Assembly: GCA_016234935.1 (NCBI GenBank)
Contig: JACRNL010000007.1
Coordinates: 1 to 64,000, forward strand
Direction: 5' to 3'
Length of the DNA stretch: 64,000 nucleotides
Source: Deltaproteobacteria bacterium
GTDB taxonomy: Bacteria > Desulfobacterota > GWC2-55-46
Each line of letters starts with the position of its first letter. The stretch's first letter is position 1. A program made the translations under genes and the position numbers. This document shows, in pieces, positions 11,747 through 44,468 of the stretch. A model generated the notes under the pieces. That model ran no database searches, was not told the DNA's origin, and worked only from the letters and a program-made list of their open reading frames with translations.

Positions 11747-13300
11747 ATGAAAAGTCCGGCGGCGATATCCGTAAAAAACATCTCAAAAAAGTACCGCCTC
11801 TTCAATTCGCCGAGAGAGCGCTTTATCGAGGCGCTGCACCCGTTCAAAAAAAAGTATCACAGAGAGTTCTGGGCCTTGAAGGGGGTCTCCTTCGAGGTGC
11901 CGGCAGGGGTGACGGCCGGGATAATCGGCAGGAACGGCTCAGGCAAATCCACGCTTCTTTCGATAATATCCTCCGTCCTTAAGCCAAGCGAAGGCGCGGT
12001 CACGGTAAATGGACGGGTCTTTGCCCTTCTGGAGCTTGGGGCGGGATTCAACCCCATGCTCACGGGACGTGAGAACGTATTTTTAAAGGGCGTCATCCTG
12101 GGCATTTCAAAGGACGAGATGCGGCGCAGGCTGCCGGATATCGAGGCCTTTGCCGACATAGGCGGCTTCATTGACCAGCCCGTCCGCGTATATTCTTCGG
12201 GAATGTTCGTCAGGCTTGCCTTTGCCACCGCCATCAACGTAGACCCGGACATACTCATAATCGACGAGGCCCTTGCCGTCGGGGACGCGAAGTTTCAGAG
12301 GAAGTGTTTTGCCAGGTTCCATGATTTCCAGAGGGAAGGCAAGACCATCCTGTTCGTAAGCCACTCAACTGACGCCGTCATAAGGCATTGCGATACGGCG
12401 CTGCTCCTTGAAGGAGGCAGGGTCGTCGAGGCCGGCGAGCCCAAGGCGGTCGTGAATTCCTACTACGACCTGCTCTTTGCGCAAAATTCCACGGGTTATG
12501 CGCCGGAGCCGCTTCTTGTGGAGGAGGGTTACAGGGGCTTTAACATCGTCCATGCCGGAGCGGGATACTACGCATTTTCGCAGACGCTTGGCGCGATGGA
12601 CGCCGGGGCCGCTAACGCCGAAAAAATTGAGGAATTGATAAAGGCCGGTCTTTGCGCGGCAGGCGGCTCTGCCGAGGAGGTCAGGCGGAAGGTCGATGAC
12701 ATTACGCCGGGCCTTGATTCCGCCGCCGTCAAGACAGGCGCGGCGGCTTCGATTAGCCCGTTTGATGCGTTTCTGGAAAGTGTCCCTGCCTGCGACGTAT
12801 GCAGGCAAAGGAAAAGCTACAATAAAAACGAGTCCCGCTGCGGGGATGGAAGGGCGGAGATAGTGGACTATCTCGTTGTTTCCCAGGGCGAACTTGACCC
12901 GGTGGCAATCAGGTCGGGCGCCGGCGTGGACATTTACATGAAGGTGAGGTTCAGCAGCGCTGTCCAATACCCGATGTTCGGATTTGCCGTCATGACGACC
13001 GACGGGGTCATCGTCTACGGAACGAACACGCGGCTGGCCCGCATCGGCATAGGGCCGGCACAGGCTTGCAGCATGGCCACGGTAAAATGGTCTTTAAAGC
13101 TTGACGCCAACACCGGGGACATCTTCATAAATCTCGGCGTGGCGGAGCAGATGCCCGACGTGGACGATATGATGGACGACAGGAAGGATCTCATCCATCT
13201 GCACGTCCACTCGGACGAGGAGTTCGTCGGCCTTGCGCGGTTTGAAACGGAGTTCCAGGAATTTCCAGCCGTAATGTCAGCGGGGCAATTGACAGTTTAA
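11747..13300 (+). CDS. wzt: ABC transporter ATPase for polysaccharide export (Wzt type) with inserted YRGF domain
   Basis: 517 residues. Residues 1-245 form an ABC ATPase with Walker A GRNGSGKST (61-69), signature YSSGMFVRLAFA (149-160), Walker B ILIIDEALAVGD (169-180) and H-loop SHS. Residues 365-510 look like the beta-rich Wzt C-terminal domain that recognises the capped end of O-antigen or capsule chains (VDIYMKVRF, GFAVMTTDGVIVYGTNT). Between them, residues 256-318 carry the small domain EEGYRGFNIV...YYAFSQTLG...VDDI that recurs in the next two genes. No Wzm permease gene is present in the window, which is odd because the two are normally adjacent. Confidence 0.88.
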   Translation: MKSPAAISVKNISKKYRLFNSPRERFIEALHPFKKKYHREFWALKGVSFEVPAGVTAGIIGRNGSGKSTLLSIISSVLKPSEGAVTVNGRVFALLELGAGFNPMLTGRENVFLKGVILGISKDEMRRRLPDIEAFADIGGFIDQPVRVYSSGMFVRLAFATAINVDPDILIIDEALAVGDAKFQRKCFARFHDFQREGKTILFVSHSTDAVIRHCDTALLLEGGRVVEAGEPKAVVNSYYDLLFAQNSTGYAPEPLLVEEGYRGFNIVHAGAGYYAFSQTLGAMDAGAANAEKIEELIKAGLCAAGGSAEEVRRKVDDITPGLDSAAVKTGAAASISPFDAFLESVPACDVCRQRKSYNKNESRCGDGRAEIVDYLVVSQGELDPVAIRSGAGVDIYMKVRFSSAVQYPMFGFAVMTTDGVIVYGTNTRLARIGIGPAQACSMATVKWSLKLDANTGDIFINLGVAEQMPDVDDMMDDRKDLIHLHVHSDEEFVGLARFETEFQEFPAVMSAGQLTV

Positions 13301-13362
13301 AAAAAACAGTTATCCTTGAATTGTCCCTTATACTGGCAGTCGGCGGTTTTTTACCCCCTGAG

Positions 13363-13386
13363 GGGGCTCAGCCCCTGTTTTTTCTC
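13363..13386 (+). terminator. Terminator-like hairpin after wzt
   Basis: GGGGC TCA GCCCC is followed by TGTTTTTT, 63 bases after the wzt stop. The stem is also half of the CCCCTGAGGGGGCTCAGCCCC palindromic element, so the repeat may have been recruited as a terminator. Confidence 0.55.
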
Positions 13387-13451
13387 ATCTCGGCGCGCAT
13401 CACACCCTGAAGTCACATCTCGAACGGCTAATAGTTAAATAGATATACGCG

Positions 13452-13550
13452 CCCCCGATTAAAACATTCGAGGGCAGGTGACGGCCAGTCTCCGTCCCCC
13501 GATTAAAACATCCTCGATAGATACATTCGAGGACATGCTCGAGGGCAGGC
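13452..13550. repeat. Double REP-like palindrome (CCCCCGATTAAAACAT type)
   Basis: Two copies of CCCCCGATTAAAACAT are followed by CCTCGATAGATACATTCGAGG and then CTCGAGGGCAGGCC. One palindrome appears inserted in another. Apart from the terminator-like hairpin, nothing gene-like was seen in the 318-base space 13301-13618. Confidence 0.7.
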
Positions 13551-13618
13551 CAGGGAGACGCCGGCCTGCGGAGCCGCGTTTTTAATTTTCCATCCGAAGG
13601 AATCACCGGGAGAAGGCG

Positions 13619-14989
13619 ATGGACGTTGATATCGGTGAAAAGCAGATTCAGGGCGTAGAGCAAAAGGTGGTGCTTGAAGCGCTGGCCTCGATGGCGGCAA
13701 GGCCGGGCTGTCTTTTCCTTGAGGTCGGCTCGTGGTGCGGCGACACGTCCGCCATCCTTGCGCGGATCGCGCGCGAGCGCGGAGGGCATCTCGTGTGCGT
13801 GGATTGGTGGAAGGGAAGCCCCGGCACCGGGTTGGCCGAGATAGCCAAAAAGAAGGACGTCTACGCCTATTTCTGGAACCGCATGAAGGAAGAGGGGCTC
13901 GAGGATACGGTCATGCCGCTGCGCGGGCAGTCGAAGCACGCCGCGAGGATATTGAAGGAAGGCTTATTCGACCTCGTCTTTATAGACGCGGACCACACCT
14001 ACGCGGGCGTCTCCTCGGACATAAACGTCTGCGCGCCGCTCGTAAGAAATGGCGGCGTCCTGTGCGGCCACGACTGCGAGGGCCGCGTCAGTGATTACGA
14101 CCTCGACTTCCTTTTATCGGGCAAAGAAAAAAACTTTCATGAATCCGTCCATTGCGGCGTCGTCCTTGCCGTTGGCGAGAAGTTTAAGGATTACTCGGTA
14201 AATTACAATATCTGGAGCGTTCGTAAAGGCGGCGGCAGGTGGAAGGCCGCCGCCCCGCGCCTCGGCAAGCTCAAGGACAAAAGGCAGCTTCCCCCGATAC
14301 CTATAGGGCTTACAAGCAGGCACATCGTCATGCGCTGCGGAAAGTTCGTCTACGCCGCCCCGCGAAGGCTCGTTGAGTTCGACCCCTCGGAGGAGGCCGG
14401 CCGCATTGACCCCGGCGTGGTAAAGGCCGCGACCGTTGCCGAATTGGAGGCCATTATCGGGCAAAAGGTGGAGTATTCGGACGCAAGACCCGTCCTGTCG
14501 GGGCAGTACCGGGACTTTAATTTTTTACGGTTTAACGGAAGATACTGGGCCATGTCAAAGACATTGGGCAATGTAGACCTTGCCGCGCTTGACCCGGCCG
14601 CGGTTAAAGAGCTTGAAGAAAAAGGTCTTTGCGCGGCGGCCGGGGCAGGGGCCGAAGCCGAAGCCGAAGATTGGAATGAATTGAAACGGCTTGTGGACGA
14701 GCTGATGCACCTGTGTCCCGTGATGCGCGAGGAGGGCTACCGGGGGTTTAATATCGTGGCCTACAAAAAGATGTTTTACGCCTTTTCTCAGGAGCTCGGC
14801 CCTTTTGACATAAAGACCGTGGACGAGGCGGCGCTTGCGGTTTTCACGCTCAGGCAGAGATGCGCCGTAGCCGCCACCCACGAGGATGCAAGGCGGCTGG
14901 TTGATGATATTGCGTCTTTATGCGCGGAGAGCGGACAGAAAGGCGGCAAAAATGACGACAGCGGAAAAACAGATCACATGAACGGGTAG
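13619..14989 (+). CDS. Class I SAM methyltransferase fused to three YRGF-type repeat domains
   Basis: 456 residues. Residues 20-200 are a class I methyltransferase of the Methyltransf_24 kind: motif I LFLEVGSWCGDTSAILARIA, then LVCVDWWKG and the Asp-rich FIDADHTY near 121-128. Residues 230-435 hold three copies of a small domain: a degenerate copy (233-281), a clear copy QYRDFNFLRFNGRYWAMSKT (292-363) and EGYRGFNIV...MFYAFSQELG (370-431). The same domain is in the preceding Wzt and the following radical SAM protein. The start has a good GGGAGAAGG site. A sugar or chain-end methylation role is plausible, since Wzt systems often export methyl-capped chains. Confidence 0.8.
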   Translation: MDVDIGEKQIQGVEQKVVLEALASMAARPGCLFLEVGSWCGDTSAILARIARERGGHLVCVDWWKGSPGTGLAEIAKKKDVYAYFWNRMKEEGLEDTVMPLRGQSKHAARILKEGLFDLVFIDADHTYAGVSSDINVCAPLVRNGGVLCGHDCEGRVSDYDLDFLLSGKEKNFHESVHCGVVLAVGEKFKDYSVNYNIWSVRKGGGRWKAAAPRLGKLKDKRQLPPIPIGLTSRHIVMRCGKFVYAAPRRLVEFDPSEEAGRIDPGVVKAATVAELEAIIGQKVEYSDARPVLSGQYRDFNFLRFNGRYWAMSKTLGNVDLAALDPAAVKELEEKGLCAAAGAGAEAEAEDWNELKRLVDELMHLCPVMREEGYRGFNIVAYKKMFYAFSQELGPFDIKTVDEAALAVFTLRQRCAVAATHEDARRLVDDIASLCAESGQKGGKNDDSGKTDHMNG

Positions 14990-15071: not shown

Positions 15072-17681
15072 ATGGACGGCCTCTTGAGATCGATTTGGGT
15101 ATACAGAAAAGCAAGCTGGGTATACAGAAGGTTCAAGCGTTACATACCCAAGGGACTCAGGGGCATGGTCAAGTTCAAATTCACGGGTCTAAATAACTCA
15201 GGCGGAGATAACATGGACATTATCGGCGCGTCGGTCAAGGTAAGAAACGGGACAAGGATGGTTACGGCAAAGGCGAGAAAGGTGCGCTTTTCAGCGCACA
15301 GGTTCTTTACGGGCAGCGGAAGGCCGGAGGAGGTCAAGGCCCTGTGGCTGCTTTGCGATTATCTTTGTTCACGGCCGCCGGCTCTGGCCGTCTACGGAAG
15401 GGGCCCGTTTTTAGAAGAGCTCCTCAAGCACGCGCCGGCGCTAAAGCAGTCCATAAAATACATTATAGATGACAACGCGCCCTTGCAGGGTGTCACACCC
15501 TTGCAGGGAGGGGCGTCCGGCGCCGTTCCGGTCATACGCCCGGACTCTGTCCCCCGCGAGGTGCGGACGGTCTTTCTCGCCGAGACGCGCACCGCCCGGC
15601 GTTGGCACATGAAAAAAAAGCTCAACAGTCAGCAGGGCGGCATTGAGGCGGTATCCCCGGATATCATCGCGGATATAGGCAGGCACCTTATTCCGGCCCA
15701 CGCGTGGGTGAACGAGACGAGCAATATCTATCCGATAGACATACCGGAGATAGCCTTCAAGCCCGGCCTCGACATGGCGCTCATAGACAGCCCTTCAAGG
15801 AACATGGCCTTCATGCCAAACGGCCTTGCTTACGTGAGTAACGCCCTTAAAAAGGCAGGCGTGAGCTTCCAGACGGTTGACCTCGACATCATCGCGTACC
15901 ACAGGTATCACGTCAGCCGCCTCTTTGACGCGCCGGATGTGATACTGACGCCGGACGGAAATCCCCTGCCCGAAGACCCCTGGCTGGCGGAGAACTACGA
16001 ACTATGGCAGAGGCCGGACACGCTTGAATACTTCCGTCCGATGATAGATGAAACGGTAAGGGCGCTTGCCGAGGCCAGACCGAAGATCGTCGGCTTTTCC
16101 ATACAGGCGTGCAACGTGAAGTTCGCAAAGGAGGTCGCAAAGGGGGTGAAGGCGCTTTTGCCGGATACCCTTATCCTTGCCGGCGGGTACAGCTGCTATC
16201 AGCCGTTCATAGGCAGGCTTGCCTTTCCTGAGGCGGATTACATGATGATCGGCGAGGCGGACCTCAATGTGGGAGGACTCGTCAGAAGGCTTAGCGCGGG
16301 CGAAAGGCCGACCGGGCTGCCCGGCGTCATCTCCAGGTTCGACCCGCCGGATACGGACTTCAGGCCGGGGCCGATGCCCAAGGATCTCGACGCGCTCGAT
16401 ATGCCGCGCTACGACTGGTACGGCATCGACGTATACAGAAACCACAACCACTACCAGCTGACGCCGATAATAGCAAGCAGGGGATGCAGGTGGTCAAAGT
16501 GCAAGTTCTGCGCGGAGAGGTTTTTCTGGAGGATACGATCCCCGAAGAACGTCGTTGACGAGTTCGAGTACCTCTCCGGCAAGGGATGCGACCTCTTTAT
16601 GTTCAACGAGAGCGATCTGAACGGCATGCCGGAGGCGCTCCTTGAGATATGCGACGAGATAATAAGAAGAAGGCTTACCATAAAGCTCACCGGACAGCTG
16701 CGCATACACAAGAACAGCGACCGCGCGTTCTTTGACAAGCTCAAGGAGGCCGGGTTCGTCTCGCTCCGCTTCGGCGTAGACGCCTGGGCGGAAAACACCC
16801 TGCGCCTGCAGCTCAAAGGCTACACCCTTGGCATGATAACCCAGAACCTCAGGGACTGCCTCGCCTCCGGCATCTACACCGAGGTGAACATCGTCCTCGG
16901 TGTGCCGGGCGAGACCGATGACGACATCACGCAGTCGATAGAATTGATAGAAGCCAGCAAGCCGTATATCGGCAGGGTGGCCAATATAAATCCGCTGATG
17001 CTCATGTCCGGGAGCGTCTACTGGGAAAGTCCTGAGGAGCACGGCATACGGTTTCGCGGCGACAAGCAGGAGATATTGACGAAGCATCAGCACATGGTGC
17101 CGGATAATATGTGGTTCAGCGAAAATCCGTATATTGACGAAAAGGTCAGGAGACAGCGTTTTGAGCGCGTTGTCATGGAGCTGCACAAGCGGGGTTTTGA
17201 CGTGGGGCCGTTCGCAAAACAGGTGATAAAAGACGTCCTCGAAGGCAAGGGCGCAGGGGCAAGCGCAAGGCCCGGCGCGCAGCCTGACGGCGCTGCCCAG
17301 GGCGCGAAAAAGGGCTTTTTCGGCTTTGCCGCGCCGGGGCCGGCGGAAAAAAAGCTCCACGTCGTCAAGTTTTCCGGCGGCTTTTACGGCATTGACGGCG
17401 GCGCCCTGGACGCGGCTGAGGCGCCGAGTCTCTTTGATTCAAACGTGCTGGAGGTCAAACGGGAAAATCCGGCGAATATCCGTCTCATCACGGAAGGCTA
17501 CGCCTCCTGCTACAACATAATAAAAGTGGAAGGCGCGTTCTACGGCATCAGGCAAGGCTACCCGTTTGATATTAACATGGCCGAGGCCGGCGGCTACGAG
17601 CCAGGGGTATGCTTCAGGGGGCGGACCATCAAGGATGTCGAAGATACTATATCAAGCTCCGTATCGGCCAGGATAGCATAG
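15072..17681 (+). CDS. B12-binding radical SAM protein with extra N- and C-terminal domains
   Basis: 869 residues. Residues 85-200 look like a Rossmann-type nucleotide-binding domain (LAVYGRGPFLEELL, IIDDN). Residues 235-410 form a cobalamin-binding-like fold (MALIDSPSRN, IVGFSIQACNVK, LILAGGYSCY). Residues 465-690 are the radical SAM barrel with an Fe-S motif C472-x4-C477-x2-C480 (GCRWSKCKFC); the spacing is CX4CX2C rather than CX3CX2C. Residues 755-862 carry two diverged copies of the YRGF domain (VVKFSGGFYGIDGG, EGYASCYNIIKVEGAFYGI). A palindromic element adds APLQGVTPLQGG near 136-147. Such enzymes methylate or rearrange unactivated carbons. Confidence 0.85.
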   Translation: MDGLLRSIWVYRKASWVYRRFKRYIPKGLRGMVKFKFTGLNNSGGDNMDIIGASVKVRNGTRMVTAKARKVRFSAHRFFTGSGRPEEVKALWLLCDYLCSRPPALAVYGRGPFLEELLKHAPALKQSIKYIIDDNAPLQGVTPLQGGASGAVPVIRPDSVPREVRTVFLAETRTARRWHMKKKLNSQQGGIEAVSPDIIADIGRHLIPAHAWVNETSNIYPIDIPEIAFKPGLDMALIDSPSRNMAFMPNGLAYVSNALKKAGVSFQTVDLDIIAYHRYHVSRLFDAPDVILTPDGNPLPEDPWLAENYELWQRPDTLEYFRPMIDETVRALAEARPKIVGFSIQACNVKFAKEVAKGVKALLPDTLILAGGYSCYQPFIGRLAFPEADYMMIGEADLNVGGLVRRLSAGERPTGLPGVISRFDPPDTDFRPGPMPKDLDALDMPRYDWYGIDVYRNHNHYQLTPIIASRGCRWSKCKFCAERFFWRIRSPKNVVDEFEYLSGKGCDLFMFNESDLNGMPEALLEICDEIIRRRLTIKLTGQLRIHKNSDRAFFDKLKEAGFVSLRFGVDAWAENTLRLQLKGYTLGMITQNLRDCLASGIYTEVNIVLGVPGETDDDITQSIELIEASKPYIGRVANINPLMLMSGSVYWESPEEHGIRFRGDKQEILTKHQHMVPDNMWFSENPYIDEKVRRQRFERVVMELHKRGFDVGPFAKQVIKDVLEGKGAGASARPGAQPDGAAQGAKKGFFGFAAPGPAEKKLHVVKFSGGFYGIDGGALDAAEAPSLFDSNVLEVKRENPANIRLITEGYASCYNIIKVEGAFYGIRQGYPFDINMAEAGGYEPGVCFRGRTIKDVEDTISSSVSARIA
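15479..15510. repeat. In-frame palindromic element in the radical SAM gene
   Basis: CCCTTGCAGGG and TGTCACACCCTTGCAGGG are two related palindromes read in frame as APLQGVTPLQGG. They lie in a loop of the Rossmann-like domain after IIDDN. They resemble the CCCTTGAAGGG halves at 46048 and 54808, with GCA in place of GAA at the centre. Confidence 0.65.
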
Positions 17682-17693
17682 GAGGCAGGACTG

Positions 17694-18650
17694 ATGGAAT
17701 TCTTGCATAAAAGCACATTTTCGAAAAAACCGGCGCTGAGCATTATCCTCCTTGATTGGACGGTCAGGGAGAGTTTTCACACGCTGGAATATCTCAACCG
17801 CCAGAGGATAGCCAGGAGCAGTTACGAGATCATCTGGATAGAGTTCTATTCGAGGAGGGCGCCCCGGATAAAGGAAATGATGGACAGGGCCAGGGCGCTT
17901 GGCCTGCCGCCTCCCGTGGACACGTGGATAGTCATGGATACGCCAAAGAGCGAATACTACCACAAGCACAGGATGTATAACATGGGGATATTGAATTCAT
18001 CGGGCCGCATCACGGTCATCCTCGATTCCGATGCCATAGTAAGGCCGACCTTCGTGGAAACCGTCATTGACGAATTCGAAAAAAACGCGGACCTTGTCCT
18101 GCATTTCGAGCAGATAAGGAACTTCGACACGGCCTTTTATCCGTTTAATTTTCCGTCCGTCCGCGAGATTACCGGCCAGGGCTGCGTTAACGCGGTCAGC
18201 GGCGTTCCGAGCGGGTTTGATACGGCGGCCAGGAGCCTCAAGGAGGACTGGAACCTCTGGCACGTCTATAACTACGGGGCGTGCCTGTGCGCCAGGCGGG
18301 ACGATATGATACTCATCGGCGGGGCGGACGAGCACGTTGATTATCTCGGCCATGTGTGCGGGCCATACGAGATGACGGCTCGCCTTGTCAACGCCGGCTT
18401 TGCGGATAAACTCCATTCAACGCACTTCCTTTATCATGTATGGCATCCGAATCAGGGAGGGGACAATAATTATTCAGGCCCGAATAACGGCAAGGGCATG
18501 TCGCTCACGGCCATGGAGCTCCCGAAGACAGGCAGGATACTGCCCCTTACGGAGAACGCGGAGATAAAAAAACTGCGTCTTGCGGCAACGGATGAATCCG
18601 CTTCGGAAGGAGCTTCTACATTGAAGGAGGCGAGGCCAGCGCATGTTTAA
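17694..18650 (+). CDS. Family 2 glycosyltransferase
   Basis: 318 residues. A GT-A fold is seen from the strand LSIILLDWTVRESFHTLEYL and the DxD-type motif ITVILDSDAIVRPTF near residue 105. The C-terminal half has a motif FLYHVWHPNQGGDNNYSGP that recurs in the protein at 23507 (FLYHVWHPGTNGKNNYMGP), so the two are paralogs. AGGAGG lies 8 bases before ATG 17694. The end overlaps the start of the next gene by 8 bases. The product should transfer a sugar from a nucleotide donor to the growing glycan at the cytoplasmic face. Confidence 0.82.
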   Translation: MEFLHKSTFSKKPALSIILLDWTVRESFHTLEYLNRQRIARSSYEIIWIEFYSRRAPRIKEMMDRARALGLPPPVDTWIVMDTPKSEYYHKHRMYNMGILNSSGRITVILDSDAIVRPTFVETVIDEFEKNADLVLHFEQIRNFDTAFYPFNFPSVREITGQGCVNAVSGVPSGFDTAARSLKEDWNLWHVYNYGACLCARRDDMILIGGADEHVDYLGHVCGPYEMTARLVNAGFADKLHSTHFLYHVWHPNQGGDNNYSGPNNGKGMSLTAMELPKTGRILPLTENAEIKKLRLAATDESASEGASTLKEARPAHV

Positions 18651-21198
18651 CTCGGCGGCTGAACAAAAAGACGCACTGCCCGTGCCTTTCACGTATTTGG
18701 GCGACAGAAAAAACCTCGCGTATTTTCAGGCCCTGCCAGGCTACGCCGGCGCCATAAGGCTCACGCACGATGAACTGAAAACGCGGATAACCTTCCCGGA
18801 TGACGCGCCGCTTATGGATAGGCTGGCATTTCACATCGGGATACACAGGGTGCCGCCTCACATAAGGACTATTTACGTGGAGAGAAAGGCGTATTACCTC
18901 TCATTTTTCATGCAGTGCGTGGACGTATACGGACTTACGGACAGGAAGGTGATACTTTTTGAAAACAGAGACGGGCGCATCGTAGATATCTGCGATAATT
19001 TTTCCGGCAGCGGCGGTTTCGCCGTTCTTGGTTCAAGGGAAAATCTGAAATACTTTAAGGACAGGCCCGGCTTTATCGCCGGGATATACTCCGGCACGGT
19101 TTCGGATGACGAGCTTGTCCTGTCGCTTCGCGACACTGTCAGGGTGGCCGGTTTTCCGGAAACCATCTATGTGGAGGATACGCCCTTTTATTTGAATTAC
19201 TACATCCGCCACGCCGGCCTGGAGGGCATTTTAGACAGAAAACTGAAGCTGTTCAAGGTCAGCGGCGGCGTAGTCGAGGAACGTGACTATGAGCCGCGGG
19301 CGGACGGTATTGACGGCGCCGGCGCCCCGGCGAGGGTATACGAGATAGACCTCGTGAATCAGTGCAACCTCAAGTGCAGGATGTGCCATATAAGCTACAT
19401 GGGCGACAGAAAGACCCAGTGCGTCGAGATAGACCAACTGAGGGGCGTGAAGAACGTCTTCATACAGATGGGCGGCGTCTACGAGCCGCTGATGCACAAA
19501 GACTTTCCCGCGATAGCAAGGATGCTCTCGGATAACGGGTGCGAGCTTTCGATCATCACCAACGCGACGCTCCTTACCCCGGCCCTGATAGCGGAGCTTG
19601 CAGGGTGCAACTTCTACTCCATCCACGTCTCCTTTGACAGCGCGGACAAAAAGATATACGAGGGCATAAGAAGGGGCGCGCGTTTTGAAAAGACGCGCCA
19701 GAACATCCTTGACCTGCGCTCGGCCTTCAGGGGCAAGGATACCATGTTCATGATAAACATGGTCGTGATGAAGGGCAACATGGGCGGCCTCAGGGAAATG
19801 GCGGATTTTGCCGAGGCCGCCGGGTTTGACGGCCTTGGGCTGATACCTATGGTTGTCCGCTCGTCCGGGGCCGATGTCGTCAGCCAGTCGCTTGATCCGA
19901 TAATGGACGAGGCCAACGGCAGATTCGACGAATGCGCCGAGCACGTGATAAAAAACAGTTACCGGATCGTTTTAAGCGCGCCGTATTTCCTCTATACACC
20001 GCTCCGCTCGCAATATCCGAAAAACGTAAAGAATGGAATTGTGCGGTCTGACAACCCTGCCGCAAGGACGTACTTCAATAAATATACGGCCTATCAGTTA
20101 GGCCGCCATCCGGGGATGAAGCATAACTGCGTCTCGCCCTTTACCTTCGCCAAGATAGGCCCTGACGGGGCCGTCTACCTGTGCAACGAACTGCTTATCG
20201 GCAACGTCAACAGCGGCAATATCATGGACATATGGAATGGCAGGGCGGCCTCGTACATAAGGCGCTTCATCATGGACAACCCGTTGCTCTGCCAGGATTG
20301 CGACAGGTATAAATACTGCCTTAACCCCAGGGCCGCGAGCAAATACAATCCCGATAATATCGCCGCCACGTCGGAAGGTCGCGATAGGCTTAAAAAGATA
20401 GCAAGGGAGAATCTCCGGCCAAAGGCGGGCTTCGACGGGGTGAGCCACTCCTTGGCCGAGGCCATGATGAGCGGCGACGGCGAGACGGTTAAAAGACTGG
20501 CGCCTGAAGCGGACGCGTTTGCAACGGACGGCTGCGCCAGCACGCTCCTTCTGTATGCGGCGCTTTACGGCTGCGAGGAAGCGGCGGAGATATTGATAGA
20601 GATGGGCGCGGACGTCAACGCAAAAAACAGGTATTCGGACACCCCGCTTACCGCCGCGCTGCTCGGAGGCCGCATGGGGATAGTAAGGCTCCTTGCAGGC
20701 AAAGGCGCGGACGTCAACCATGCCTTTGCGTACGCAATGGCCATGAATAATCTCGACTGGGCCGCCCTGCTGGCCGGCCTCGGCGCGGACGTGAACGGGA
20801 GGCTTTCCGACGGCCTGACGCACCTTGTGAACGCCGCCATAAACAACGACATGGAAACCGCGTCGTTTCTTGTCGCCAAAGGCGCGGACGCCGACTCGGC
20901 CGATGAAAACGGCTCAACGGCGCTTATCCACGCCGCCCTGAACGGCCTTTATGAGATGGCCGGATTCCTTATAGAAAGCGGAGCGGACGTCAACCGTAAA
21001 AATCTGTATTTTGACACCCCCCTGTCCGTGGCCGCGGCGCACGGCAGAAGGGCAATGGCGGAATTCCTCGCGGCAAAGGGCGCGAGGCTCGATGACGCCC
21101 TTGTCCGCGTGTCCGTCATAGACGACGCAAGAGCGGCGGCGCTTTTGACTTCTCTCGGAGGCGATGCAAATGTTATTTCTGCTGACGCATGCAAATAA
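18643..21198 (+). CDS. Radical SAM/SPASM protein fused to ankyrin repeats
   Basis: 851 residues with an unusual order. Residues 15-118 and 125-217 are two copies of one unnamed domain (YLGDRKNLAYFQALPG / VLGSRENLKYFKDRPG; IYVERKAYYL / IYVEDTPFYL; LTDRKVILF / ILDRKLKLF). Residues 233-440 are a radical SAM barrel with C241-x3-C245-x2-C248 (NQCNLKCRMC). Residues 496-560 form a SPASM-like segment with C496, C514, C550, C553 and C559 for auxiliary Fe-S clusters. Residues 600-850 are about six ankyrin repeats (EILIEMGADVNAKNRYSDTP). SPASM enzymes often modify peptides or sugars; the ankyrin tail suggests binding to a protein partner. Confidence 0.85.
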   Translation: MFNSAAEQKDALPVPFTYLGDRKNLAYFQALPGYAGAIRLTHDELKTRITFPDDAPLMDRLAFHIGIHRVPPHIRTIYVERKAYYLSFFMQCVDVYGLTDRKVILFENRDGRIVDICDNFSGSGGFAVLGSRENLKYFKDRPGFIAGIYSGTVSDDELVLSLRDTVRVAGFPETIYVEDTPFYLNYYIRHAGLEGILDRKLKLFKVSGGVVEERDYEPRADGIDGAGAPARVYEIDLVNQCNLKCRMCHISYMGDRKTQCVEIDQLRGVKNVFIQMGGVYEPLMHKDFPAIARMLSDNGCELSIITNATLLTPALIAELAGCNFYSIHVSFDSADKKIYEGIRRGARFEKTRQNILDLRSAFRGKDTMFMINMVVMKGNMGGLREMADFAEAAGFDGLGLIPMVVRSSGADVVSQSLDPIMDEANGRFDECAEHVIKNSYRIVLSAPYFLYTPLRSQYPKNVKNGIVRSDNPAARTYFNKYTAYQLGRHPGMKHNCVSPFTFAKIGPDGAVYLCNELLIGNVNSGNIMDIWNGRAASYIRRFIMDNPLLCQDCDRYKYCLNPRAASKYNPDNIAATSEGRDRLKKIARENLRPKAGFDGVSHSLAEAMMSGDGETVKRLAPEADAFATDGCASTLLLYAALYGCEEAAEILIEMGADVNAKNRYSDTPLTAALLGGRMGIVRLLAGKGADVNHAFAYAMAMNNLDWAALLAGLGADVNGRLSDGLTHLVNAAINNDMETASFLVAKGADADSADENGSTALIHAALNGLYEMAGFLIESGADVNRKNLYFDTPLSVAAAHGRRAMAEFLAAKGARLDDALVRVSVIDDARAAALLTSLGGDANVISADACK

Positions 21199-22051
21199 GG
21201 GAGAGGCCCCGGCGCCGCCGGAGCGCGCCGTGGATGAAGATTTCGCCCCTGCCTCGTGGCAAACGCACCGCTGGGGGCTTGCGTCGGCGCGGTGGGAACT
21301 GCTCCGCGGCAAGAGTTTTTGGATAACCGGGGCCGGCACAGGCTACGGCAGGTGCATGGCGACCGCGCTTGCCTCGGCCGGGGCGCAGGTGTTCCTGACC
21401 GGCAGGAGAAAAAAAACCCTTATTGAGGCCATCGAGGCGATGAAGCCGTTTTCCATCCCGGTTGACAACTGTCACGCTATTACCGCGGATGTTACCGATA
21501 TCCTTGACGTTAAGGCGGCCTCGGCAGGCATAAAAAAACTCTGCCCATCGCTGTATGGCCTTGTAAACAACGCGGCCCTGCCGCCAAGCGGCGTGAGATT
21601 TCCAATTCAGGATGAGACGCCGGAATACTGGGACGCGATCATGCGCACCAATGTCACCGGGCCGAGACTTTTGACGGCTGAGATATTTCCGCACATGATC
21701 GCCGGCGGCGCGGCGCGGATACTTTTCATGACGTCCGAGGCGGGCTGGGCCTTTACCTCCGGCGTGGGGCAATATAACGTTTCAAAGGCGGCGCTCAACA
21801 GCCTTGCGGCGTCGGCGGCGGCGGAATATTCAGACAGATATCCGGAGGCGGACGTGCAGATAAACGCCCTTGATCCGGGCGAGGCAAAAACAGAGATGAA
21901 CTGCGATTCGAAGGCAAGTCCCTGGAGGGTCGCGGGCATGTCCCTTGCGCTGCTCTCACATCCGCGCGGAGGACCCAATGGCAGATTTTTTTGCAGAGAC
22001 GGCAGGAGGCTGCGCTTTGCGTACGCAAAAGAATATGAAAAGCCGCTTTAA
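21170..22051 (+). CDS. Short-chain dehydrogenase/reductase
   Basis: A classical SDR of about 293 residues: cofactor motif WITGAGTGYGRCMATALA, the NNAA motif in LVNNAALPP, catalytic Ser in ILFMTSEAGWAF, and Y-x3-K in QYNVSKAAL. ATG 21164 and 21170 are both possible; 21170 is 8 bases after GGAGG, so I chose it. The start overlaps the previous gene by 29 bases, a sign of tight translational coupling. It probably oxidises or reduces a sugar or lipid-linked intermediate of the glycan; the substrate is unknown. Confidence 0.83.
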   Translation: MLFLLTHANKGEAPAPPERAVDEDFAPASWQTHRWGLASARWELLRGKSFWITGAGTGYGRCMATALASAGAQVFLTGRRKKTLIEAIEAMKPFSIPVDNCHAITADVTDILDVKAASAGIKKLCPSLYGLVNNAALPPSGVRFPIQDETPEYWDAIMRTNVTGPRLLTAEIFPHMIAGGAARILFMTSEAGWAFTSGVGQYNVSKAALNSLAASAAAEYSDRYPEADVQINALDPGEAKTEMNCDSKASPWRVAGMSLALLSHPRGGPNGRFFCRDGRRLRFAYAKEYEKPL

Positions 22052-24979: not shown

Positions 24980-25050
24980 GCCCCCGCTTTAGACATGCGG
25001 GGGTTGAACCCCTTCAAGGGGCAGGCTCTATCCTCTCTCCGAGGGGAGAG
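24979..25050. repeat. Composite REP-like palindrome
   Basis: CCCCCGCTTTAGACATGCGGGGG is joined to TTGAACCCCTTCAAGGGG and then CCTCTCTCCGAGGGGAGAGG. Three short palindromes fill the whole space between the glycosyltransferase stop and the oxidoreductase start. The last T of the stop codon lies next to the repeat. Confidence 0.7.
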
Positions 25051-25065
25051 GAATCGGGTGAACGA

Positions 25066-26307: not shown

Positions 26308-26640
26308 AACGGCGATATTACTTAATATGCGTAAACTCTGCCGGGACGGTTGACAAATTGAAAATCCGGTTTAAACTTACTTATACTTACATGTATGGCA
26401 TTCGATTTCTGCGCTGATTCGACCCGCATCATGAATACCCGCATCAAGAAATTTTAACCCGAGCAGTTCTCATCAAGGACCCCATCAAGACGCGCATCAC
26501 ATCAGTGGAATTCCGTAGATTTTTTAGCGGCGCTTTTGTAAATCCCAGGTAAATGGAAGGTGCGCGGCGCCTCCGAGCGCGCCAGGGTGTATGCACGCAT
26601 TGCGGCATACGGAGGCCCGATTTTATCCGGAGCAAAGAGT
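26308..26640 (+). other. Gene-free space before the heptose genes, possible promoter
   Basis: This 333-base space has no REP palindrome, unlike most gaps here, and is locally AT-rich. TTGACA occurs at 26350-26355 and TATACT at 26382-26387, but the 26-bp spacing is too long for a normal sigma-70 promoter. A weak AAACTT lies at 17 bp. A promoter for the hddC-hddA set is expected here but not proven. An open frame runs in from 26560, but its first 27 codons lack a ribosome site. Confidence 0.35.
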
Positions 26641-27357
26641 ATGGAAGCCATTATCCTTGCCGGCGGCAAAGGCACAAGGCTCAGCAGCGTGGTCAACGGC
26701 ATCCCCAAGCCGATGGCGGACGTGAACGGAACGCCGTTTTTAGGCCATGTCCTGGGCAGGCTGTCCGCCTCAGGCGTTCACAGGGCGATACTTTCCGTGG
26801 GCTGGATGTTTGAGGCGATACGGGGATACTTCGGCGCCAAATACAAGGGTATCGGCATGGATTACGTTATCGAAGACAGGCCGCTTGGGACGGGAGGCGC
26901 GATTAAAGAGGCGCTTAAAAGCGCAAGGGAAGAGGACGTATTTGTCTTGAACGGAGACACATATTTCGAAGTGGGCATTGCTGGGCTTCTGAAAGCGCAT
27001 AAGGAAAAAGACGCGGACGTGACCATATCACTCAAACCGATGCGGGATTTTGACAGATACGGGACTGTAACGCTTGATGGAAATGGCAAGGTGGCGGGCT
27101 TTAATGAAAAGAGGTTTGAAAGGTCCGGCCTTGTGAACGCCGGGTTTTATGTTTTGAAAACGCGCATGGCGGAGACACTCGACCGGTATTGCCCCGAGGA
27201 GAGCTTTTCATTTGAAAAGGATTTTTTAGAGGTAAACGTAAAGGCGCTGAATGTAGCGCCGTATGTAGAAGATGGATATTTTATCGATATCGGCATCCCT
27301 GAGGATTATCAGCGGGCTAAAAAAGAGTTCAAGATGCTCAGGGAGGGACGCGCATGA
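26641..27357 (+). CDS. hddC: D-glycero-alpha-D-manno-heptose 1-phosphate guanylyltransferase (HddC-like)
   Basis: 238 residues of the sugar nucleotidyltransferase fold: MEAIILAGGKGTRLSSVVNG, then GIPKPMADVNGTPFLGHVL, and the metal-binding VFVLNGDTYFEV. HddC makes GDP-heptose from heptose 1-phosphate and GTP. The identification rests on the fold plus the adjacent heptose kinase gene and gmhA at 43881. The sequence alone would also fit another NDP-sugar pyrophosphorylase. ATG 26641 is preceded by CGGAGC at 8 bases and matches the usual N-terminus, so the longer frame from 26560 is rejected. The stop overlaps the next start (ATGA). Confidence 0.8.
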   Translation: MEAIILAGGKGTRLSSVVNGIPKPMADVNGTPFLGHVLGRLSASGVHRAILSVGWMFEAIRGYFGAKYKGIGMDYVIEDRPLGTGGAIKEALKSAREEDVFVLNGDTYFEVGIAGLLKAHKEKDADVTISLKPMRDFDRYGTVTLDGNGKVAGFNEKRFERSGLVNAGFYVLKTRMAETLDRYCPEESFSFEKDFLEVNVKALNVAPYVEDGYFIDIGIPEDYQRAKKEFKMLREGRA

Positions 27358-28364
27358 TCGTTTCGAGAACGCCTCACAGGATCTCTTTTTTCGGGGGAGG
27401 GACGGACTACCCCCAGTGGTACCTTGAAAACGGAGGGAAGGTGCTGGGAACCGCGATAGACAAATACTGCTACATAACCTGCAGGGAACTGCCGCCGTTT
27501 TTCAATCACAAATACAGGATAGCGTACTCGAAGATAGAGATGGTCGGCGAGAAGGCGGAGATACAGCACCCCGCGGTAAAAGGCGCGCTCGACCACCTGA
27601 ACATAAAGCAGGGGCTTGAGATACACCATGACGGCGATATCCCTGCCCGTTCCGGCATGGGATCGAGCTCAGCCTTTACGGTGGGGCTTTTAAAGACGCT
27701 CTACGCGTTTGAAGGAAAGATAATCTCCAAGGAAGAGCTCTTCAAGGAGGCCATACACATAGAGCAGAACCTCATCAAGGAAAACGTCGGCTCGCAGGAC
27801 CAGGTCTGGGCGGCTTGCGGCGGGCTTAATACGATAGAGTTTCTCCAGAACGGGGAGATAGTCGTCAAACCCATCATAATGGATGAGGATAAACTCAGGG
27901 GCTTTGAGAGAAAATTCATGCTGTTCTTCACCGGCATATCGCGCTTCGCGTCGCAGATAGCGGAGGAGCAGATTCAGAACACAGGCAAGAACAAGCCTGA
28001 ACTTTACAGGATGAAGGAGCTCGTCGACGAGGCGCAAAAGCTCCTCATCGCGGCGTCAAGGAACGGGGGCGACTTCACTCAGTTCGGCAAGCTCCTCAAC
28101 GAGACGTGGCATCTGAAGAGGAGCCTGTCGACGAAGATAAGCAACTCCGAGATAGACGGCATGTATGAGACCGCGATAAAAAACGGCGCAATTGGAGGCA
28201 AGCTCCTCGGGGCCGGCGGCGGCGGGTTTGTCCTGTTTTACGTGGAGCCGGAAAACCAGACGCGCGTGAGAGAGTCGCTGAGGGGCTACCTTCATATTCC
28301 GTTCAAGTTCGATTTCAAAGGCTCGGAGCTTATCGTTTACAGGCCCAATCACCATTCCATATAA
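27354..28364 (+). CDS. hddA: D-glycero-alpha-D-manno-heptose 7-phosphate kinase (HddA-like GHMP kinase)
   Basis: 336 residues of the GHMP kinase family. Motif 1 is MIVSRTPHRISFFGGGTDYP, motif 2 (ATP loop) is GDIPARSGMGSSSAFTVGLL, and motif 3 is GGKLLGAGGGGFVLFYV. This start and the P-loop fit HddA, which phosphorylates D-glycero-D-manno-heptose 7-phosphate at C1. ATG 27354 overlaps the hddC stop by 4 bases, so the two are co-translated. GmhB, the phosphatase between the kinase and HddC steps, is not in the window and would have to come from elsewhere. Confidence 0.87.
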   Translation: MIVSRTPHRISFFGGGTDYPQWYLENGGKVLGTAIDKYCYITCRELPPFFNHKYRIAYSKIEMVGEKAEIQHPAVKGALDHLNIKQGLEIHHDGDIPARSGMGSSSAFTVGLLKTLYAFEGKIISKEELFKEAIHIEQNLIKENVGSQDQVWAACGGLNTIEFLQNGEIVVKPIIMDEDKLRGFERKFMLFFTGISRFASQIAEEQIQNTGKNKPELYRMKELVDEAQKLLIAASRNGGDFTQFGKLLNETWHLKRSLSTKISNSEIDGMYETAIKNGAIGGKLLGAGGGGFVLFYVEPENQTRVRESLRGYLHIPFKFDFKGSELIVYRPNHHSI

Positions 28365-30745: not shown

Positions 30746-31694
30746 AGGCTCGAAGATATACGTTGCCGGCCACAGGGGGCTTCTTGGCTCCGCGCTCGTA
30801 AAAAGGCTTGGGGCGGATGGTTACTCGAATATAGTCACCGCGGCGCGCGGCGAGACCGACCTCACGGTGCAGAGCGCGGTGTGGAAATTCTTCAATAGAG
30901 AGAGGCCGGAGTATGTCTTCCTCGCCGCCGGCCTTACCGGCGGCATCATGGCCAACAGGCAGAGGCCCGCGGAGTTCATGCACGTGAACATCGCCATACA
31001 GGACAATGTCTTTGAGGCGAGCCGGGCCTTTGGCGTAAAGCGGCTCGTGTTCTACGGCTCCTCGTGCATATATCCGAAAAAAGCCGCGCAGCCGATGAAG
31101 GAGGACTGCCTCCTCACCGGTGCAATAGAAGAGACCAGCGAGGCATACGCCGTCGCGAAGATAGCCGGGATAAAGGCCTGCAGGGCCTGCAACATCGAGG
31201 ACAGGGCAAACCGTTTTATCGCGCTTGTGCCCAGTTCGATGTACGGCCCCAACGACGACTTCGGTCTTGAAAACTCTCACGTGCTCTCGGCGATGATAAG
31301 GAAGATTACGGACGCCAAACGCGAGGGCAGGCAGCGGCTTACCCTCTGGGGAAGCGGAGAGCCAAAAAGGGAGTTCCTTTTCAGCGAGGACGCCGCGGAT
31401 GCGTCCATCTTCGCCATGCTCAATGCGGACAGGATCGGGAACGAGTTCTGCAATGTCGCCAGCGGCCAGGAGTATTCCATAAAGGAGCTTTCATCGGCCA
31501 TATCAAGGATAGTCGAATATAAAGGCGTCATAGAGTGGGATATTTCAAAGCCCGACGGCGCGCCGAGAAAGCTCCTTGACGCCGCCAGACTCACCCGCCT
31601 CGGCTGGAGGGCCAGGACAACGCTGGAGGAGGGACTCAAGGAGACGTATCAATGGTATCAAAGGTCTTTATGCGCGAACACGGAGGCGATATGA
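30738..31694 (+). CDS. fcl: GDP-L-fucose synthase/ColC-like epimerase-reductase
   Basis: 318 residues of the GDP-4-keto-6-deoxymannose 3,5-epimerase/4-reductase family: KIYVAGHRGLLGSALVKRL, the SSCIYP motif (FYGSSCIYPKKAAQPM), Y-x3-K in EAYAVAKIAGIKAC and the family pattern MYGPNDDFGLENSHVL. Fcl makes GDP-L-fucose; its close relative ColC makes GDP-L-colitose from the ColD product. Related reductases also act on GDP-heptose in Campylobacter capsule genes. With a ColD-like gene and heptose genes next door, the actual substrate could be any of these. It overlaps the next gene by ATGA. Confidence 0.83.
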   Translation: MFKGSKIYVAGHRGLLGSALVKRLGADGYSNIVTAARGETDLTVQSAVWKFFNRERPEYVFLAAGLTGGIMANRQRPAEFMHVNIAIQDNVFEASRAFGVKRLVFYGSSCIYPKKAAQPMKEDCLLTGAIEETSEAYAVAKIAGIKACRACNIEDRANRFIALVPSSMYGPNDDFGLENSHVLSAMIRKITDAKREGRQRLTLWGSGEPKREFLFSEDAADASIFAMLNADRIGNEFCNVASGQEYSIKELSSAISRIVEYKGVIEWDISKPDGAPRKLLDAARLTRLGWRARTTLEEGLKETYQWYQRSLCANTEAI

Positions 31695-32542
31695 CAATTG
31701 GCCCAGGGGACGCCGGCGCCGATATGACCGGCTTCTTAAAGGAAAAAGCGCGGTGGGTAAGAAGAGAGACGCTGAAGATACACAAGATGGCGCAGGACAC
31801 AAGGGTGGCCTCATCCCTTTCGGCGGTGGAGATATTCACGGTGCTCTATTACGGCGGGATACTTAAAAACACGCCGAAAGATCTGAGGAGCGAAAAGCGC
31901 GACCGCATCATCATAAGCAAGGGGCACGGGGCGATTTCCCTTTATCCGATACTTGCCGATCTTGGCTACTTTGACAAAAGCGAGCTTCTGAAGGTCTGCA
32001 AAGAGGGGACGTTTCTCGGCGGCATACCCGATTCGGTCATCCCCGGCTTTGAAACCATAAACGGCTCATTGGGGCACGGCATAGGCGTGGGGTGCGGCAT
32101 GGCCCTGGCATTGAAGAGGAAAAAGCGCGGCGAAAAGGTGGTCGTCATAGTGGGCGACGGGGAGCTCTACGAAGGCTCCGTCTGGGAGGGGTTGATGTTC
32201 GCGGGGGAGCACGGGATAGACAACCTCCTTGTCATCGTTGACCGCAACGGGGTCTCGATGCTTGACCGCTGTGAAAACATCATAGACCTTGAAGCGCTGG
32301 ATGAAAAGTTCAGGGCCTTCAGGTGGGAAACGTCAAAGGCCGACGGCCACGACGTGGACGCCCTCTACTCCTTCGTTAAAAGATTCAAAACGGAAAAGGG
32401 CGCGGGAAGGCCGGTCATGCTCATCGCGGAAACGGTAAAGGGCAAGGGCGTGGCGGCGCTTGAAAGCGACCCCCTCAGCCACATAAGGAACATAAAACCG
32501 GATGAAGTGGACAATCTTTTAGCGGGGATGGATTTATTATGA
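31691..32542 (+). CDS. Transketolase-type enzyme, N-terminal (ThDP-binding) subunit
   Basis: About 283 residues, the first half of a split transketolase: SKGHGAISLYPILADLGY, GSLGHGIGVGCGMAL and the ThDP motif GDGELYEGSVWEGLMFAG ending in IVDRN. ATG 31691 overlaps the previous stop and follows GGAGGCGAT, so it is chosen over the in-frame start at 31652. The partner subunit follows with an ATGA overlap. Split transketolases usually move a two-carbon ketol unit between sugars. In this locus it may supply sedoheptulose 7-phosphate for GmhA or attach a two-carbon branch to a sugar nucleotide. Confidence 0.86.
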   Translation: MTIGPGDAGADMTGFLKEKARWVRRETLKIHKMAQDTRVASSLSAVEIFTVLYYGGILKNTPKDLRSEKRDRIIISKGHGAISLYPILADLGYFDKSELLKVCKEGTFLGGIPDSVIPGFETINGSLGHGIGVGCGMALALKRKKRGEKVVVIVGDGELYEGSVWEGLMFAGEHGIDNLLVIVDRNGVSMLDRCENIIDLEALDEKFRAFRWETSKADGHDVDALYSFVKRFKTEKGAGRPVMLIAETVKGKGVAALESDPLSHIRNIKPDEVDNLLAGMDLL

Positions 32543-33489
32543 AGACCATGAGGGACACCTTTATAGACGGCGTCTGCGACCGGATGCATGAGGACGAACG
32601 CATCTTCTTTCTGTGCGCGGACTTCGGCTCTCCGAAGCTTGACCGGATAAGGGTCAACTTCAAAGACAGGTTCATAAACGTCGGCATAGCGGAGCAAAAC
32701 CTCGTTAACGTCGCGACGGGCCTCGCGCTGGAGGGCTTTGCCGTTTACGCCTACGCCATCGCGCCCTTTCTCACGATGCGCGCGTATGAGCAGATAAGGG
32801 TGAACGTCGCCCTGCACGCGCAGCTCCGCGAGCTGAACGTAAACCTCGTAGGCGTGGGGGCGGGCATGAGCTACGACGTATCCGGCCCGACGCACCACTG
32901 CATAGAGGACATCATCATCATGCGGACGCTGCCGAACATAAGCGTCATCTGTCCGAGCGACTGGGCGCTTGCCGCGAGGTTCGTCGAATATTCCTTAAAG
33001 GTGAAGACGCCCAAATACCTGAGGTTTGAGGGCAAGCCCCTGCCGGCAATATATGAAAACGCGGCGGACGTGAGGATAGACAGCGGCTTTTACGAATTAA
33101 AAAAGGGCGGGGACATATGCCTTGTCTCAACGGGCTACATGACGCACAAGGCGCTGAAGGTGGCCCAAATGCTCGCCGAAGAAGGCATAGACGCAGGCGT
33201 CCTTGACGTATTCATCATCAAGCCGTTTAACGACGAGCAGATATACGAGGCGCTGAAGGGTTACAGGTGCGTGGTCACGCTTGAAGAGGGTTTTGCAGGC
33301 AAAGGCGGTCTCGACAGCCTCGTTGCCTGCATGCTCGAAGACAGGGCGTCGGACATAAGGCTTAAAAGGATGGGGTTTGCGGACGAGTATCTGTTCGATA
33401 TCGGATCAAGGGAATATCTGCATAAGCTCGGCAAGCTCGACGCCGAGAGCATAATAAAAAACATAAAGACGCTGCTAAGGGGAGTTTGA
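32539..33489 (+). CDS. Transketolase-type enzyme, C-terminal subunit
   Basis: 316 residues holding the pyrimidine-binding domain (FINVGIAEQNLVNVATGLAL with its activating Glu, then AIAPFLTMRAYEQIR) and the C-terminal transketolase domain (ICLVSTGYMTHKALKVAQML, CVVTLEEGF). It pairs with the preceding subunit through a 4-base overlap. The cofactor site of transketolases lies at the subunit interface, so both halves are needed. The stop overlaps the next start as TGATG. The full length of the two halves together, about 600 residues, fits transketolase rather than pyruvate dehydrogenase. Confidence 0.87.
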   Translation: MKTMRDTFIDGVCDRMHEDERIFFLCADFGSPKLDRIRVNFKDRFINVGIAEQNLVNVATGLALEGFAVYAYAIAPFLTMRAYEQIRVNVALHAQLRELNVNLVGVGAGMSYDVSGPTHHCIEDIIIMRTLPNISVICPSDWALAARFVEYSLKVKTPKYLRFEGKPLPAIYENAADVRIDSGFYELKKGGDICLVSTGYMTHKALKVAQMLAEEGIDAGVLDVFIIKPFNDEQIYEALKGYRCVVTLEEGFAGKGGLDSLVACMLEDRASDIRLKRMGFADEYLFDIGSREYLHKLGKLDAESIIKNIKTLLRGV

Positions 33490-43880: not shown

Positions 43881-44468
43881 ATGCAAAATAACGACGAGCT
43901 GATACGGAAAATTTTTGAAGAGAGCGCAAGGGTGAAGGAGAGGTTCTTCAGCAGGAAAAACCTTCCCCTGATCAACATGGCCTCGGAGATGATAGCCGAA
44001 GCGTTCAAGGCGGGCGGAAAGCTCATGGTCGCAGGCAACGGCGGGTCAGCCGGGGACGCCCAGCACATCGCGGGGGAGTTCGTCAATAAATTCGAGATAG
44101 AAAGGCCGCCCCTGCCGGCCCTGGCCCTTTCCACGGATAGTTCGGTCATAACGAGCATAGGCAACGATTATTCATTCGACCAGATATTTTCCAAACAGGT
44201 CAGGGCGCTCGGCAAAAAAGGCGACGTGCTGCTGGCAATCTCCACGAGCGGAAGTTCAAGGAACGTCATAAATGCCGCGGAGGCGGCGAAAAACATCGGC
44301 GTTAAGACGATAGCGCTCACCGGCAAGGGCGGCGGAGAGCTTGGAGGCAAGGCCGACCTTCTCCTGAATGTCGACGCGGACTCAACACCCCGCATACAGG
44401 AGGTGCACATCACCGTTTGTCACATCATTTGCGCCCTCGTTGACGCGGCGCTCTTTCAAAGGGTCTGA
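43881..44468 (+). CDS. gmhA: Sedoheptulose 7-phosphate isomerase
   Basis: 195 residues, the usual GmhA length. SIS domain motifs: GNGGSAGDAQHIAGEFVNKF, ALSTDSSVITSIGNDYSFDQ, AISTSGSSRNVINAAEAAKN and the metal-binding HITVCHIICALVD. GmhA converts sedoheptulose 7-phosphate to D-glycero-D-manno-heptose 7-phosphate, the substrate of HddA. AAGGAGCC lies 5 bases before ATG 43881. Together with hddA and hddC it supplies GDP-heptose. The transketolase pair could feed it with sedoheptulose 7-phosphate. Confidence 0.9.
   Translation: MQNNDELIRKIFEESARVKERFFSRKNLPLINMASEMIAEAFKAGGKLMVAGNGGSAGDAQHIAGEFVNKFEIERPPLPALALSTDSSVITSIGNDYSFDQIFSKQVRALGKKGDVLLAISTSGSSRNVINAAEAAKNIGVKTIALTGKGGGELGGKADLLLNVDADSTPRIQEVHITVCHIICALVDAALFQRV

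Follow-up and report, generated by a model that had tools for sequence, protein, structure and literature searches.

Cytosylglucuronate decarboxylase (BlsE) works on a sugar nucleotide, and ankyrin repeats bind proteins. Radical SAM/SPASM enzymes combine a radical SAM core (PF04055) with a SPASM domain (PF13186), and in the anSME type the SPASM domain holds two auxiliary clusters and seven to eight cysteines, according to excerpts of a published account (PMC5682303). Excerpts of another paper describe the assembly of O-polysaccharides by multiprotein complexes, one component of which has a TPR-like bundle, and, for O-polysaccharides of the ABC transporter-dependent export type, a check of the end product by the carbohydrate-binding part of the exporter (PMC11231755). 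In searches of the open literature, a body that omits most subscription papers, no title or abstract opening concerned a fusion of radical SAM and ankyrin parts.

Such a fusion is encoded in the window, by which is meant the whole 64,000-nucleotide stretch of contig JACRNL010000007.1 that was analysed. The gene occupies 18643..21198 on the forward strand, the strand also of its domains and of the five neighbouring genes from Wzt to SDR described below, and is defined by its open frame, Pfam matches and a full-length ortholog; a single uninterrupted frame of 851 codons runs from the ATG at 18643 to the TAA at 21198 and specifies a protein of 851 aa. Pfam places Radical_SAM at residues 238-379, SPASM at residues 496-554 and ankyrin repeats in the last third of the chain; every one of these matches exceeds its curated cut-off, and residues 1-237 have no Pfam match. 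The fusion of a doubled N-terminal domain, a radical SAM core, a short SPASM domain and an ankyrin tail in one chain is real, as the sequence-only reading had claimed when it described an 851-residue single chain with a duplicated N-terminal domain. That the ankyrin part is instead a separate gene or the product of an assembly join is extremely improbable: GC content rises from about 0.55 to 0.58-0.65 within the ankyrin part, and no other support was found, but the frame is uninterrupted, no frameshift or join lies near 20440, and residues 16-842 align collinearly with an ortholog from an independently assembled genome. As this ortholog is 59% identical and shares both architecture and gene order, a separate ankyrin gene and a join can both be dismissed. 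Differences from the ortholog are about twice as frequent at third codon positions as at first or second ones in all three parts of the protein, a coding pattern that extends throughout. A whole-protein AlphaFold2 model (pLDDT 54.7, pTM 0.35) was set aside and no conclusions were drawn from it.

The ortholog comes from another genus of the family (genome G019; 59% identity over residues 16-842) and was the only other full-length match among those listed when the whole protein was searched against 59 genomes, those of the window and of 58 relatives. Its locus is found letter for letter within contig JAUSLB010000149.1, part of a metagenome-assembled genome deposited as Deltaproteobacteria bacterium. 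Identity between the orthologs is 63% and 58% in the N-terminal repeats, 64% in both the radical SAM and SPASM domains and 54% in the ankyrin tail, and the alignment has a single gap column in the radical SAM-SPASM part and another in the ankyrin part. Inspection by eye of the listed whole-protein matches revealed no further site that combines radical SAM and ankyrin parts. The N-terminal domain is present in 2 of the 48 genomes of the order and in just one of 297 sampled genomes of the phylum, the window's own. A profile of the N-terminal domain plus core matched 382 of 395 sampled phylum genomes, a breadth to be anticipated of radical SAM proteins in general; after the window's own protein, the best match among those listed was a protein of genome G249 (E 1e-81), and the next scored 1e-24. 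A scan of a contig collection with two short peptide patterns, which would overlook diverged fusions, returned 54 stretches, including two relatives, one of them full-length and located on that same contig, JAUSLB010000149.1. Partial matches occur in 48 plasmid records, none of which covers 80% of the protein (0/48), the best radical SAM-only match being on an Azospirillum plasmid; the 96 pattern stretches from viral contigs include no relative. Judged from these sequence comparisons, the architecture is rare in what was searched, with full-length matches confined to two genomes, and the sequence-only reading was right to call it unusual. Taken singly, the elements are of known kinds; what is new is the way they are combined, with a new doubled N-terminal domain, a short SPASM core and an ankyrin tail that is both old and conserved.

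Like other radical SAM/SPASM enzymes, the protein has a CX3CX2C motif (C241, C245 and C248) and an above-cut-off SPASM domain, but it adds the doubled N-terminal domain and the ankyrin tail and has few SPASM cysteines. The radical SAM core (19354..19779; residues 238-379; Pfam and alignment) scores 56.3 bits against the PF04055 cut-off of 29.5, and with the motif set in a radical SAM barrel it belongs to the superfamily. The short SPASM domain (20128..20304; residues 496-554; Pfam and alignment) scores 37.3 bits against a PF13186 gathering score of 21.5 and is likewise a member of its family. Four cysteines of this domain (C496, C514, C550 and C553) are invariant across four aligned sequences, namely the two orthologs, the G249 relative and the Azospirillum plasmid protein. 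The SPASM region has just five cysteines, the fifth (C559) being common to the orthologs only, so that the anSME-type two-cluster set is absent (five cysteines in the orthologs, four of them shared by the other two aligned proteins); the short domain may hold a single auxiliary cluster. The best NCBIfam match of the core is TIGR04317, a tungsten cofactor oxidoreductase maturase (78.3 bits against an equivalog cut-off of 380), and its top matches there are families with other substrates, every one far below cut-off, as is TIGR04466, cytosylglucuronate decarboxylase (34.3 bits against an equivalog cut-off of 400). Cytosylglucuronate decarboxylase is also the only enzyme among solved structures matched by sequence (PDB 7vob and 7voc; profile positions 222-351; E 5e-8), a match that spans the radical SAM barrel only and may mirror the general fold. 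The likeness to BlsE covers about 130 matched positions, and its solved chains, at 360-364 residues, are too short to hold the N-terminal and ankyrin extras.

The N-terminal domain consists of tandem copies of a unit of about 100 residues, at 18682..19008 (residues 14-122; half-to-half comparison) and 19009..19296 (residues 123-218; half-to-half comparison and AlphaFold2 model). The halves are 34% identical and align with a profile-profile probability of 97.4% (hhalign; E 3e-11). An AlphaFold2 model of residues 1-218 is alpha/beta (pLDDT 67, pTM 0.69), and sequence comparison with solved structures gave no match up to E 5. With the model as query, Foldseek returned a best E of 1.2e-3 (TM about 0.3), and VIA-align a best Z of 7.5 to 3nkl (93 residues, 3.0 A), a value for which the tool's own note allows a mere common arrangement and behind which several unrelated alpha/beta folds follow closely. 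The idea of a diverged YNIV module, our label, after a recurring motif, for a unit of about 60 residues in neighbouring proteins, was rejected (profile-profile probability 1.1%), and kinship with the Rossmann-like region suspected in the neighbouring B12-binding radical SAM and GT2 proteins was ruled out at sequence level (0.06-1.3%). The doubled domain may provide the enzyme with a second binding part besides the ankyrin tail.

The ankyrin tail comprises two blocks of four repeat units each, at 20446..20817 (residues 602-725; Pfam and block comparison) and 20818..21186 (residues 726-848; block and ortholog comparison). Ank_2 scores 105.2 bits against a Pfam cut-off of 27.3, with its best stretch at residues 699-787, and ankyrin matches start at residue 636, which places the tail among tandem ankyrin proteins. 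The sequence-only reading had correctly recognized the tail but counted about six repeats; there are about eight units, arranged as duplicated blocks 45% identical to each other. Comparison with the ortholog gives 59% and 51% identity between counterpart blocks, against 43% and 34% between the blocks themselves, and the block duplication therefore predates the ortholog split. Free-standing ankyrin proteins of the same order share the repeats (best matches 36-39% identical among those listed) but differ in that no enzyme domain was seen by eye in the six of ten loci that were read (L008, L009, L011, L012, L018 and L021; the minus-strand matches L002, L010, L014 and L025 were left out). Several ankyrin proteins of relatives have a lipoprotein-like or signal-like N-terminus, also as read by eye.

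The gene is embedded among glycan genes. Upstream, it overlaps by 8 nt a GT2-like gene (17694..18650; Pfam and ortholog locus), the most strongly conserved of the neighbours (72% identical to its counterpart beside the ortholog), and its 3' end overlaps by 35 nt an SDR gene (21164..22051; Pfam) that is a neighbour in the ortholog locus too; the corresponding overlaps there are 7 and 26 nt. Further upstream lie a Wzt-type ABC ATPase with a YNIV module (12521-12703) and Wzt_C (11747..13300), a methyltransferase with three YNIV modules (13619..14989; modules at 14306-14461, 14501-14701 and 14729-14911) and a syntenic B12-binding radical SAM protein with a C-terminal YNIV module (15072..17681; module at 17490-17654), all assigned by Pfam and the module profile. 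Gene order is common to both genera from Wzt through methyltransferase, B12-binding radical SAM, GT2, radical SAM-ankyrin, SDR and GT2-TPR to a further GT2 gene, the ortholog contig ending inside this shared block on both sides. Downstream, the window encodes an NTP transferase, a GHMP kinase, a DegT aminotransferase, epimerases, a split transketolase pair and a B12-binding radical SAM protein. In G011, another genome from the genus of the ortholog, the epimerase and B12-binding radical SAM genes are present but the N-terminal domain has no match (best listed whole-protein match E 2.8e-6), which indicates that the core sugar set can do without the enzyme and that the latter belongs to a variable part of the pathway.

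Several other features of the region are worth recording. The Wzt-type ATPase at 11747-13300 has no ABC2_membrane partner within the window, the genome's listed matches being on other contigs; in a relative (G006), an ABC2_membrane-family gene adjoins the Wzt relative. The split transketolase-like pair (31652-33489) sits beside the epimerases, the aminotransferase and the B12-binding radical SAM gene, an arrangement suggestive of an unusual branched sugar. Heptose-type genes (NTP transferase, GHMP kinase and a SIS-domain protein) are found at 26560-28364 and 43881-44468, the NTP transferase being nearest to D-glycero-D-manno-heptose-1-phosphate guanosyltransferase, below the NCBIfam cut-off. 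Two adjacent large F5/8 type C proteins are encoded at 34961-39875, the second of which also has a weak match to PMT_2 (mannosyltransferase).

Among the matches listed, the nearest other relative of the core is the G249 protein, from another family of the phylum (36% identity; E 5e-74 by BLAST and 1.1e-81 by profile search of the phylum sample). This 483-residue radical SAM/SPASM protein adjoins a Wzt gene, in a locus whose GHMP kinase (56%), epimerases (60% and 42%) and B12-binding radical SAM protein (52%) show the identities given to their counterparts in the window. It lacks the N-terminal domain and the ankyrin repeats, and its C-terminus is a YNIV module; within the order of G249, a protein of this type occurs in 1 of 35 genomes, G249 itself. 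In the window, Wzt and the B12-binding radical SAM protein each have one copy of the module and the methyltransferase has three, and in related loci (L031, L061, L062 and L063) it is carried by two glycosyltransferases, two methyltransferases and a B12-binding radical SAM fragment, kinds that were read by eye, with the fragment and one glycosyltransferase also assigned by BLAST. It is found in 4 of 297 sampled phylum genomes, is matched by no Pfam or NCBIfam family in its carriers from the window, and as a profile gives four weak matches to solved structures (E 0.21-0.44). The YNIV-bearing methyltransferase matches five plasmid records, in which the listed matches stop before the modules. By its recurrence, the module singles out Wzt, methyltransferase, glycosyltransferases and radical SAM enzymes as proteins that probably work together.

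Taken with the glycan context in two lineages, the fact that the sole solved sequence match is a sugar-nucleotide enzyme leads us to favour, with roughly even confidence, a radical SAM/SPASM enzyme that would tailor a sugar of an ABC-exported surface polysaccharide while its ankyrin repeats dock it to glycan-assembly proteins. The chemistry, cluster count, substrate and docking partner are what we infer from the comparisons above. The sugar to be modified would be part of a sugar nucleotide or of a lipid-linked chain, in a surface polysaccharide pathway that depends on an ABC transporter. Cleavage of SAM at the CX3CX2C cluster would yield a 5'-deoxyadenosyl radical that takes hydrogen from the sugar, after which the single SPASM auxiliary cluster would pass or accept an electron; the outcome would be an epimerisation, oxidation, dehydration or decarboxylation. 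Docking onto glycan-assembly proteins would fall to the ankyrin tail, and the doubled N-terminal domain may be the enzyme's second binding part. Docking is suggested by the function of ankyrin repeats, the exchange of the tail in the G249 relative and the published multiprotein O-polysaccharide complexes; that the G249 protein ends in the YNIV module of Wzt, methyltransferase and B12-binding radical SAM protein is what a recruiting role of the C-terminal slot would predict.

The sequence-only reading took the ankyrin tail as a possible sign that the enzyme acts on a peptide or glycoprotein rather than a free sugar. Docking through the tail is a fair deduction from ankyrin function, but the further step to such a substrate finds no support, as the overlapping genes are glycan genes, syntenic on both sides in two genera, the core relative in G249 likewise lies among sugar genes and has a different tail, the only solved sequence match is a sugar-nucleotide enzyme, and neither a precursor peptide in the gaps read nor a Pfam RRE in 40 window proteins was found. 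A version in which the ankyrin repeats bind a client protein or peptide and a SPASM-type active site installs a side-chain radical modification is unlikely. It would suit the protein-binding habit of the repeats, and SPASM enzymes commonly act on peptides in excerpts of the published account (PMC5682303); the best NCBIfam match of the upstream B12-binding radical SAM protein is, moreover, a RiPP methyltransferase family, below its cut-off (108.5 against 281.85), which is a counterpoint to the glycan assignment. Yet six-frame reading of the gaps at 13301-13618 and 24980-25065 revealed no precursor peptide or other small peptide gene, the former, the only roomy upstream gap, having no conserved small ORF and no similarity to its counterpart in the ortholog locus, and Pfam, which misses many RREs, gave no RRE or PqqD match in 40 window proteins. 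The RiPP radical SAM/SPASM maturases share domain type and SPASM with this protein, which lacks a full SPASM cysteine set and for which neither partner was found in the gaps and proteins covered.

A rather unlikely alternative keeps the sugar substrate and drops the docking: the enzyme would make a cytosolic nucleotide sugar, and the ankyrin repeats would merely stabilise it or self-associate. The locus is rich in nucleotide-sugar genes and, among proteins of solved structure, those nearest by sequence are sugar-nucleotide enzymes, as this explanation would have it, but the tail is nearly as conserved as the rest of the protein (54% against 58-64%), its block duplication is older than the ortholog split, and the G249 relative has a shared YNIV module in its place. 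A broader extension of the docking proposal, quite unlikely at present, is that C-terminal ankyrin, TPR and YNIV tails might be interchangeable connectors that gather tailoring enzymes, two of them radical SAM proteins, around Wzt, with the chemistry taking place on the growing lipid-linked polymer and not on free nucleotide sugars. If the ankyrin tail does recruit the enzyme to a glycan-assembly complex, this would show a coupling of oxygen-sensitive radical chemistry to surface polysaccharide export.
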